DNA of 64,000 nucleotides from Pedobacter sp. AK013. GTDB lineage: Bacteria; Bacteroidota; Bacteroidia; Sphingobacteriales; Sphingobacteriaceae. A program made the position numbers and the translations under genes. The notes beneath the pieces were generated by a model that did not search any database, had not been told where the DNA came from, and saw nothing but the letters and a program-made list of their open reading frames with translations. The stretch covers positions 1-64,000 of the forward strand of contig NZ_JACHCQ010000018.1 in assembly GCF_014205835.1 (NCBI RefSeq). Direction: 5' to 3'. This document shows, one piece after another, positions 61,206 to 64,000 of the stretch (position 1 is the stretch's first letter; each line of letters opens with the position of its first letter).

Positions 61206-61652
61206 ATGCTGTCCAAAAAAACAAAGTATGCCATAAAAGCGCTTGTTGCGCTTGGTAAAAATTTAGATAAACCACCAATGCAAATTTCTAAAATTGCAGA
61301 GGAGGAGCATATCCCGAAAAAATTCTTGGAGCAAATTCTGCTCGATCTGCGTAACGCTGGCTTTTTATACAGTAAAAAAGGTGCAGGTGGTGGGTATAGC
61401 TTAAACAAAAAGCCTGAAGAGATTTTATTGGTACATGTAATGCGGGTAACTGATGGGCCTATTGCAATGGTTCCCTGTGCAAGTTTAAATTTCTATCACA
61501 AATGTGATGAGTGCATAGATGAGAAAACATGCGGAATCAGAAGCGCTTTTATCGATGTAAGGGATGCTACGCTAAAGGTTTTAACCGAAACCAGCATTGC
61601 AGATGTAATCGGCCGTGAAGATAACCTGAAAATCGGTATCGTTAATTTATAA
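61206..61652 (+). CDS. Rrf2-family transcriptional regulator with four-cysteine cluster
   Basis: A 148-residue regulator with an N-terminal winged helix (about 1-75; TKYAIKALVALGKNL, ISKIAEEEHIPKKFLEQILL, KKGAGGGYSLNKKP). Residues C91, C100, C103 and C109 (VPCASLNFYHKC, DECIDEKTC) form a cluster that may bind an iron-sulfur centre or sense redox/cysteine status, as in IscR, NsrR and CymR relatives. It lies directly upstream of the sulfite reductase gene, ends at a strong terminator, and is therefore its own transcript. A role in control of sulfate/sulfite assimilation is an inference from position and common for Rrf2 genes in this phylum. Confidence 0.88.
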   Translation: MLSKKTKYAIKALVALGKNLDKPPMQISKIAEEEHIPKKFLEQILLDLRNAGFLYSKKGAGGGYSLNKKPEEILLVHVMRVTDGPIAMVPCASLNFYHKCDECIDEKTCGIRSAFIDVRDATLKVLTETSIADVIGREDNLKIGIVNL

Positions 61653-61740
61653 TATTTATTTTCTACATCTAATGCGTCATGCTGAATTTATTTTAGCATC
61701 TATTATGATAGGTCTTAAGCCGCTCATGTTTTAAAATATT

Positions 61741-61777
61741 AATCCCAAATTCGTTTATTGAGTTTGGGATTTTTTTT
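61741..61777 (+). terminator. Intrinsic terminator of the Rrf2 gene
   Basis: AATCCCAAA (61741-61749) pairs with TTTGGGATT (61763-61771), closed by TTC/GAG-like inner bases, and is followed by eight T residues. It ends the Rrf2 transcript 90 bases past the stop codon, so the sulfite reductase gene needs its own promoter. Confidence 0.9.
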
Positions 61778-61967
61778 GCAGATAGCAGCTTTCTGTTTCA
61801 ATTTACAATTTTCAATTGCCGGTTTTTAGCTAAATAATTAAATAATTAAAGAATTTAATTCATAGATTTCTCTCCCGATTTAACATCTTGACTGTACTTC
61901 AGTCGAAATGACGTTTCTTTTATGTAAAATTTTTTATAATAAATTACGACTATTCCTATATACTTTA

Positions 61968-61975
61968 TATATTTG
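61968..61975 (+). promoter_or_regulatory. TATATTTG, candidate -7 element for the sulfite reductase leader
   Basis: Exact TAnnTTTG match. Transcription from it would begin near 61982, giving a leader of about 150 bases that contains the Cys-rich ORF and the terminator hairpin before the start at 62136. No good -33 TTTG is seen. Confidence 0.5.
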
Positions 61976-61979
61976 GCGT

Positions 61980-62048
61980 ATGAATTTCAATTTTATACCT
62001 AACAAGTTAATCGCTATGCAAATGATGTGCTGTTGTAAAACGCAATAA
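61980..62048 (+). promoter_or_regulatory. Leader ORF with three consecutive Cys codons (candidate cysteine attenuator peptide)
   Basis: An ATG at 62016 starts MQMMCCCKTQ, with codons ATG-TGC-TGT-TGT in a row at 62025-62036, ending TAA at 62046-62048. In the same frame an ATG at 61980 would give 22 residues, but the likely transcription start is beside it, so the shorter form is more probable. It lies upstream of a sulfite reductase gene and is followed 37 bases later by a terminator hairpin. This is the arrangement of amino-acid attenuators: when Cys-tRNA is scarce the ribosome stalls at the Cys codons and the terminator does not form. The mechanism is inferred. Confidence 0.6.
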
Positions 62049-62084
62049 TAGAGGCCTACAGATAATTTTAAGTATAAAATATGG

Positions 62085-62114
62085 AATGCTTCTCGGTAAT
62101 AGGGAAGCATTTTT
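62085..62114 (+). terminator. Terminator hairpin in the sulfite reductase leader (attenuator)
   Basis: AATGCTTCTC (62085-62094) pairs with GGGAAGCATT (62102-62111), ten base pairs including one G-T and a seven-base loop, then a short T-run (62110-62114). It sits 22 bases before the start codon and 37 after the Cys-rich leader ORF. It should stop most transcripts unless an alternative fold prevents it. Confidence 0.7.
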
Positions 62115-62135
62115 AGAATAAAGCTAACAACACAT

Positions 62136-64000
62136 ATGCAAAGTTTCAGAACAGAACTCGAAAATCCGATTGTCGAGCAGGACATTATCGATTTAGAGAA
62201 TAAGATTAAAGCTTTTAGAGATGGGACCATCCACGACGAAAAGTTTAGAAGCCTCCGTTTAGCACGCGGTGTTTACGGTCAAAGACAGCCTGGTGTACAA
62301 ATGGTACGTATTAAACTGCCATTTGGTAAGATAACTTTTAAACAGTTATTGCGTATTGCCGATATTGCTGATGAGTACGGAAGTGGAAATTTACACTTAA
62401 CTACCCGCCAGGATATTCAAATTCACTATGTGAGTTTAGACCGCACACCAGAACTTTGGGCTAAATTAGAGCAGGATGATATTACGCTTCGTGAGGCTTG
62501 TGGAAATACGGTACGTAATGTAACCGCTTCTCCAAATTCTGGAATCGATGCGGAAGAACCTTTTGATGTTTCGCCTTATGCTCAAGCGGTATTTGCTTAC
62601 TTTTTGCGTAACCCGATCTGCCAGGAAATGGGTAGGAAGATTAAAATCTCCTTTTCTTCGAGTGATCGAGATACTGCGTTTAGCTACATTCACGATTTAG
62701 GTTTTATTCCTAAAATTAACGAAAAAGGCGAGCGCGGATTTAAAGTTTTGTTTGCTGGTGGTTTAGGTGCACAGCCTTTCCTTGCAAACGCCGTTCACGA
62801 ATTTTTGCCCGAAGACCAGTTAATTCCTTTTACCGAATCTGTTCTTCGCGTATTCGACCGTTATGGCGAACGTACCAACCGTAACAAAGCACGGTTAAAA
62901 TACCTGGTTCAAAAACTGGGTTTAGAAGAAGTTTTACGTTTGGTTGCCGAAGAGCGTATTGCCAACAAAGTAAAAACCTTTAAAATAGATCTTAATACTG
63001 TACCACAGCCACTCTTACCTTTAGAACAAGAATATCCTGCGGTAGAAATATTAAACGAAGCTCATTACAAACATTGGTTAGCCACCAATGTAATTGAGCA
63101 AAAACAGGCCGGATTTTATGGCGTTTACGTAAAAGTTCAGGTGGGCGATATTAAAACAGATAAAGCAAGGGCATTTGTTGATGCCATCAGGTTATATGTA
63201 GCTGATGAAATCAGGATTACGCAGAACCAGGGATTGCTGCTAAAGTTTGTGCGTAAGGAAGCATTGCCTTCATTGTATGCAGCGCTAAATAAAATTGGTT
63301 TTACCACCGCCGGATTTGATAGTTTGGCTGATATTACCACGTGTCCTGGTACCGATACCTGCAATTTGGGTATTTCCAACTCAATGACCTTGGCGGAAGT
63401 TTTGGAAGAGGTAATTTATACTGATTTCCCTGAGTTTATCTACGAGAAAAACATCAAAATCAAAATCAGTGGATGTATGAACTCTTGCGGTCAGCATGGT
63501 TTAGCTGAAATTGGTTTCCACGGAAGTTCTGTAAAGGCTGAAGGAAAAGTAGTTCCGGCAGTTCAGGTAATGTTGGGCGGTGGTACCGTAGGTAATGGTG
63601 TAGGTAGAGTTGCAGAACGTGTAATTAAAGTGCCTTCTAAAAGAGCAACGAGTGTTTTACATTTTATTTTAAATGATTTTAAAGCCAATAACCTGGAGGA
63701 TGAGAACTTTCACCAGTATTATGATAGAAAAGGTAAAGATTATTTTTATCAGTTGTTAAAACCATTGGCCGATTTAACCAATCTTAAAACAGAAGAATTT
63801 GTAGATTGGGGACATGTAGAAGAGTTTGTTACCGCAATTGGTGTGGGCGAGTGTGCCGGTGTAGTAATTGATCTGGTAGCCACCTTGTTGCTAGAGGCTG
63901 ATGAAAAATTCGATTGGGCGAAACAAAACCTGGAGAAAGCTGCTTATGCAGATGCCGTTTATCATACTTACAGCACTTTTGTAAGCGCTGCAAAATCGTT
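62136..64000 (+). CDS. Siroheme-dependent sulfite/nitrite reductase (3' end beyond window)
   Basis: The frame from ATG 62136 stays open to the window edge (621 complete codons). It has the two-fold ferredoxin-like repeats of sulfite/nitrite reductases: ARGVYGQRQPGVQMVRIKLP and GNLHLTTRQDIQIHYV at the start. The 4Fe-4S/siroheme cysteines are C403 and C409 (TTCPGTDTCNLG) and C447 and C451 (SGCMNSCGQHG). After about residue 560 comes a helical extension, HVEEFVTAIGVGECAGVVID, resembling the HEPN-like tail of Bacteroidota homologues. Sulfite to sulfide for cysteine synthesis is likelier than nitrite reduction, given the Cys-coding leader and the Rrf2 neighbour. Reductase partner genes would lie to the right. 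Confidence 0.9.
   Translation, partial: MQSFRTELENPIVEQDIIDLENKIKAFRDGTIHDEKFRSLRLARGVYGQRQPGVQMVRIKLPFGKITFKQLLRIADIADEYGSGNLHLTTRQDIQIHYVSLDRTPELWAKLEQDDITLREACGNTVRNVTASPNSGIDAEEPFDVSPYAQAVFAYFLRNPICQEMGRKIKISFSSSDRDTAFSYIHDLGFIPKINEKGERGFKVLFAGGLGAQPFLANAVHEFLPEDQLIPFTESVLRVFDRYGERTNRNKARLKYLVQKLGLEEVLRLVAEERIANKVKTFKIDLNTVPQPLLPLEQEYPAVEILNEAHYKHWLATNVIEQKQAGFYGVYVKVQVGDIKTDKARAFVDAIRLYVADEIRITQNQGLLLKFVRKEALPSLYAALNKIGFTTAGFDSLADITTCPGTDTCNLGISNSMTLAEVLEEVIYTDFPEFIYEKNIKIKISGCMNSCGQHGLAEIGFHGSSVKAEGKVVPAVQVMLGGGTVGNGVGRVAERVIKVPSKRATSVLHFILNDFKANNLEDENFHQYYDRKGKDYFYQLLKPLADLTNLKTEEFVDWGHVEEFVTAIGVGECAGVVIDLVATLLLEADEKFDWAKQNLEKAAYADAVYHTYSTFVSAAKS

Follow-up and report, generated by a model that had tools for sequence, protein, structure and literature searches.

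The trp, his, leu and ilv leader attenuators share a common design, with a leader ORF rich in codons for the product amino acid, mutually exclusive antiterminator and terminator structures, and a biosynthetic operon downstream. In the phylum Bacteroidota, the Bacteroid-trp RNA of Rfam is a predicted attenuator of the trp operon. We analysed a 64,000-nt stretch of the Pedobacter sp. AK013 genome, below called the window, in which a leader of the same general design precedes the sulfite reductase gene sir. Unlike the classical examples, it carries Cys codons, has a probably leaderless ORF behind a Bacteroidota –7 box, and stands before a sulfate-assimilation operon.

Several described leaders come closer to it. 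The uORFC-8-2 motif located before cysS in Rhodobacterales is predicted to function by ribosome-mediated attenuation (PMC8632094). It resembles the Pedobacter leader in that its short uORF has Cys codons in tandem and a hairpin with a U-run closes the motif, and differs from it in belonging to Alphaproteobacteria, in serving a cysteinyl-tRNA synthetase gene rather than a Bacteroidota sir, and in having two Cys codons (PMC8632094). Actinobacterial Cys leaders have no conserved terminator (PMC1262725), and the polycysteine leaderless ORFs of mycobacteria are described as attenuating translation (Canestrari 2020, cited in PMC13236596). The likeness, as far as these accounts go, lies in a short ORF, leaderless in mycobacteria, with a run of Cys codons near its stop and cysteine genes downstream; in contrast to the mycobacterial and actinobacterial leaders, both terminator and antiterminator are conserved here. 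Within the same phylum, leader-peptide attenuation before amino-acid operons has been hinted at for Flavobacterium psychrophilum, where no example for cysteine is given in the main text (PMC9723704). The literature searched, in which most subscription journals were absent, yielded no description of a Bacteroidota cysteine leader; the sequence-only reading had likewise remarked that such leaders are known in actinobacteria, without knowing of a described example in this phylum. An Rfam search of positions 61600–62300 returned no relevant match up to an E-value of 1. Judged from sequence comparison, the leader very probably attenuates transcription through a translating ribosome, with charged tRNA-Cys as the signal.

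The leader ORF and terminator upstream of sir

The features of the locus are collected in Table 1. The –7 box expected before the sulfite reductase gene from the sequence-only reading is present. The same reading proposed a 10-codon ORF starting at 62016; its tandem TGC-TGT-TGT codons stand, while its start is too late. The codon at 62016 is not conserved, being Lys in loci L003 (whose leader reads MNFSFIPNQLTAKQMMCCCCKTQ) and L005, and the ATG at 61980, which opens a 22-codon ORF, is the likelier start. An ATG 4 nt past the –7 box is retained in nearly all Pedobacter-type leaders; the corresponding spacing in Mucilaginibacter is mostly 7–14 nt. In the promoter map of F. psychrophilum the –7 box is given as spanning –12 to –5 (PMC9723704). 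Applied here, this position puts the A of the 61980 ATG at +1, so that the leader ORF is probably leaderless. By comparison with leaderless polycysteine ORFs, the polycysteine run is present and the 4-nt gap fits a +1 start, the start position being carried over from F. psychrophilum.

Table 1. Features of the sir leader region in the window
Feature	Position	Strand	Remarks
Rrf2-family regulator gene	61206..61652	+	Upstream of leader; adjoins promoter element
Terminator of the Rrf2 gene	61741-61771		Found by simple terminator scan
Promoter: conserved element ACGACTATTCCTATATACTTTATATATTTG with –7 box at its end	61946..61975	+	Kept before most family orthologues
–7 box TATATTTG	61968-61975	+	Bacteroidota type
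Leader peptide ORF, MNFNFIPNKLIAMQMMCCCKTQ-stop, 22 codons	61980..62048	+	Starts 4 nt past –7 box
ATG ATG	62022-62027	+	Directly before Cys codons
Predicted regulatory codons TGC TGT TGT (Cys-Cys-Cys)	62028..62036	+	
Proposed antiterminator, 5′ strand AGAGGC	62050..62055	+	Directly past leader stop codon
Proposed antiterminator, 3′ strand GCTTCT	62088..62093	+	Within terminator 5′ arm
Intrinsic terminator, 11-bp hairpin and T-run	62084..62114	+	
Assimilatory sulfite reductase sir, 696 aa	62136..64000	+	Runs past window end; NIR_SIR domains

Upstream of sulfite reductase orthologues we collected the ORFs lying no more than 30 nt from a –7 box and removed duplicates, which left 107. Tandem Cys codons occur in 70 of them, against 1.6 expected from shuffles of the same DNA. 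In a scan across the class, the pattern coding for MMCCC is frequent relative to a reversed-pattern control. Cys and Met are each enriched 3.25-fold, followed by the next residue at 1.5; the Met peak falls just before the Cys run, and the Cys codons lie about 4–10 codons ahead of the stop. Codons for the product of the operon are thus over-represented in the leaders. In several Pedobacter leaders the Cys codons are dispersed and number only one or two, as in MNQTIYNGNLMLTHCMCG. Little is conserved apart from Cys and Met: peptide length ranges from 14 to about 40 aa and the N-terminus varies freely. This argues against the ORF coding for a small Cys-rich protein with a metal- or redox-binding function that stands before sir by chance. 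Peptides rich in Cys and Met could bind metals, but a peptide function would not predict the complementarity between the terminator and the RNA past the Cys codons (see below), and we find this explanation hardly credible.

Since Met codons match Cys codons in enrichment, the earlier suggestion that they add methionine sensing is reasonable, and the attenuator perhaps also responds to Met-tRNA. A stronger version, in which the same device reads methionine in addition to cysteine or in preference to it, could draw on the equal enrichment, on the Met peak next to the Cys run, and on leaders that retain Met beside a single Cys. We regard it as unlikely, given that nearly all families have runs of Cys and not of Met (MMCCC, CCCMCCCC, MMCCCCCMM) and that Met would be read earlier in the ORF, at a greater distance from the antiterminator. 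In one Pedobacter subclade (L234, L236, L238, L241 and L264) the ORF is reduced to ends resembling LMLTHCMCG, in which Cys and Met codons alternate; such ends may reflect joint sensing of Met and Cys.

Between the leader ORF and the first structural gene lies an intrinsic terminator, in the window as in its homologues. The window hairpin, GAATGCTTCTC/GGTAATA/GGGAAGCATTT at 62084–62112, has a predicted energy of –13.6 kcal/mol; it runs into TTTTT at 62110–62114, and the sir ATG follows 21 nt downstream. A hairpin with a T-run just before the start codon had been noted in the sequence-only reading, correctly as to both elements and their place; the stem, given there as ten pairs, has 11. The T-run is five long in the window and six or more in most relatives. 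A simple terminator scan misses this hairpin, though it detects that of the Rrf2 gene, and by single-sequence folding the whole leader folds no better than shuffles (z = –0.88). Curated leaders, both from the family and from 13 others, have homologous hairpins with T-runs.

The operon downstream is ordered sir–cobA (SUMT)–(precorrin-2 dehydrogenase-like + TauE)–cysH–cysD–cysN, the later genes lying beyond the window on the same contig. NCBIfam scores of the sir product fall under the curated cut-offs, with NirA-type models on top; we call it a sulfite reductase because of the operon content. The operon is one of sulfate assimilation and siroheme cofactor supply, so that its genes (sir, SUMT, precorrin-2 dehydrogenase-like, cysH, cysD, cysN) serve the synthesis of cysteine, the amino acid proposed to be sensed. 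Inside the operon (L123, 4576–6087), the precorrin-2 dehydrogenase-like NAD-binding domain is fused to a TauE/SafE sulfite exporter domain.

Distribution of the leader among families

Of the 151 family genomes, 130 carry a sir orthologue. We examined 110 upstream regions; the nearest relatives, by named loci, are Pedobacter, and the set includes Mucilaginibacter and Olivibacter. Under a strict automatic rule, which demands an ORF with Cys-Cys followed by a terminator, 34 of the 110 family regions pass, with 0.00 expected. Of 40 orthologues that belong to the class but not to this family, 18 pass (0.02 expected), representing 13 families. As these counts share ancestry, they should be read by family and not by genome. 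Outside the class, one of four distant orthologues (L304) has an ORF containing CAACACCCCTCMMGSRC and a terminator. Upstream of the 36 long ORFs that lie wholly inside the window, a set that leaves aside sir because it runs off the end, no combination of a Cys-Cys ORF and a terminator was found. The leader is absent from one genus of the family (g16), from families f12, f52 and f4, and from some Pedobacter orthologues. Most close relatives have the Cys-run ORF and the hairpin, and the alignment across Sphingobacteriaceae, in which absence from close relatives was to count against the proposal, came out in its favour. In two loci of other families (L163 and L159), two complete units of Cys leader and terminator stand in tandem upstream of the sulfite reductase gene.

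The proposed antiterminator pairing and mechanism

Helices were searched for between the RNA past the Cys codons and the 5′ arm plus loop of the terminator. In the window, the AGAGGC/GCTTCT helix has six pairs and –7.3 kcal/mol, no better than shuffles. In 18 leaders of other families, the best helix begins mostly 4–20 nt past the last Cys-Cys and beats shuffles (Fisher's P with one leader per family, 4.5e-7). Because the family antiterminators, when compared with shuffles one at a time, were mostly weak (median P 0.17), we used swap and mask tests instead. When terminators were swapped among families, the helix lost 3.9 kcal/mol (permutation s.d. 0.79; 0 of 50,000 as low); the same swap within Pedobacter and two other genera gave no significant result. 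Neighbouring examples show matched changes in the two strands, such as CGGAAGG/CCTTCCG in L169 and CGGGAGG/CCTCCCG in L173. Mucilaginibacter leaders have a seven-pair helix at the stop codon with 89% of cells paired, against 57% or less when slid; ten cells are compensatory, with changes on both sides, compared with 4.9 ± 1.7 in shuffles and none to four when slid.

The position of the helix relative to the ribosome footprint was modelled by masking. With the last Cys codon occupied by the ribosome, the terminator 5′ arm had a mean upstream pairing of 0.54; with the stop codon occupied, the mean was 0.13. This bare comparison is confounded because the larger mask always costs pairing. We therefore replaced it by a control in which shuffled RNA was placed under the same masks: pairing dropped by 0.40 in the observed leaders and by 0.13 in the shuffled ones, and the excess was positive in 19 of 20 groups. 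For the window the contrast is small (0.36 versus 0.24), since its antiterminator is weak. Across relatives, then, the antiterminator is free when the ribosome is placed on the Cys codons and masked when it is placed on the stop codon, and in the window alone this behaviour is weak. The search for an antiterminator that had been proposed for the leader thus succeeded by shuffling, swapping and covariation among relatives, while the window's own helix is weak, and the mechanism is carried over to the window genome mainly by homology.

The predicted mechanism would run as follows. RNA polymerase would start at or beside the leader ATG, with a ribosome translating the leader peptide behind it. 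When Cys-tRNA is ample, the ribosome would reach the stop codon and cover the surrounding RNA, the 62084–62112 hairpin would form, and transcription would end before sir. Under a shortage of Cys-tRNA, the ribosome would instead halt on the Cys codons. The RNA just downstream would then be left free and would pair with the terminator's 5′ arm, and the polymerase would continue into the sulfate-assimilation operon. Of these steps, we infer the site of transcription initiation, the translation of the ORF, the stalling of the ribosome, and both termination and read-through in vivo, as well as any part that Met-tRNA may play. Codon enrichment, the terminator, the antiterminator complementarity and its position relative to the footprint, the pathway match and conservation all support, at the sequence level, the ribosome-mediated attenuation originally proposed. 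Compared with classical attenuators at the level of sequence, the leader appears to be a widespread Bacteroidota cysteine attenuator, classical in kind.

Control could instead be exerted on translation, as in the mycobacterial polycysteine leaderless ORFs, which this apparently leaderless polycysteine ORF resembles. A stalled ribosome would then alter a structure that hides the sir start, and the hairpin would mainly be part of the switch. However, the hairpin has a T-run at its end, with about 20 nt left between it and the sir ATG, distant families retain both hairpin and T-run, and actinobacterial cys leaders do without terminators (PMC1262725). We consider translation-level control quite improbable and favour transcription attenuation.

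Probable promoter control and additional Cys-run ORFs

The promoter element is found upstream of most family orthologues, whether or not the leader is present; in L012 and L014 the leader is lost and a form of the element is retained. With up to 3 mismatches, CTACTATTCCTATATACTTTATATATTTG has only two copies in its own genome, one before sir and one before a second cobA/SUMT gene. The second copy (L122, 1501–1529; G000:C18:71833–71861) precedes that SUMT gene without a leader and suggests a small regulon of the adjoining Rrf2 protein. A match resembling Flavo-1 RNA lies 3′ of the second SUMT gene (L122, 2458–2525), at 39.8 bits against a gathering score of 42. The Rrf2 protein is a likely, though unproven, regulator of the sir promoter. 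Its conserved element beside the Rrf2 gene, persisting in L012 and L014 without the leader, would fit control by this regulator only, with the hairpin an ordinary terminator and no attenuator at all. Yet a terminator placed between a promoter and its own operon, together with a Cys-coded ORF, in more than 12 families, would be pointless without control of read-through, and the Rrf2 gene is already served by a terminator of its own. Control by the regulator only is in our estimate highly improbable; we infer two layers, acting first on initiation and then by attenuation.

We also scanned the class for the MMCCC pattern. Among the 30 loci read, only leaders of sulfite reductase and of O-acetylhomoserine sulfhydrylase looked real; the remaining matches, considered as further targets, were rejected, most of them appearing inside coding sequence. 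In the Pedobacter genome itself (C2, about 171418–173200, minus strand; L124), a SAM-I riboswitch (74.7 bits) is followed directly by a Cys-run ORF ending in RSIACMCCCIL and then by the O-acetylhomoserine sulfhydrylase gene. When this locus and its relatives L125–L153 were compared, 27 of the 30 loci, the own genome included, had a recognisable SAM aptamer core and behind it an ORF whose end is rich in Cys (CMCCC, CCCC or MCCCMC, among others). These ORFs are about 40 aa long, diverge at the N-terminus and retain the Cys run. Two more distant families have MMCCCMCCCSC and MMCCCCMHGCMC before O-acetylhomoserine sulfhydrylase (L294 and L296). In the loci read, no T-run terminator follows the Cys-run ORF before this gene. 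Serial control of O-acetylhomoserine sulfhydrylase by SAM and Cys-tRNA is possible. Between the Cys-run ORF and the gene, Pedobacter loci (for example L124–L135) have an RNA-like element that is conserved, CUUCC...GGAAGGYCC(hairpin)GGRUACGC. Its short hairpin shows changes that appear compensatory, and one locus searched against Rfam gave no match for the element. A broader reading would join the two targets in a single Bacteroidota Cys/Met attenuation circuit. Sulfate assimilation would be governed by leaderless leaders coded for Cys and Met, single or in tandem, with their terminators, and O-acetylhomoserine sulfhydrylase by a SAM riboswitch and a Cys-run leader directly behind it, acting serially within one mRNA. 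We place this reading slightly on the doubtful side.

If the attenuator reading is true, it would give the sulfate assimilation of Bacteroidota a defined cysteine sensor, present in many families and unannotated in Rfam. Bacteroidota make little use of Shine-Dalgarno sites; with a leader ORF apparently placed at the first base of the mRNA, the locus would therefore provide a clean model, made by nature, of how transcription is coupled to leaderless translation.
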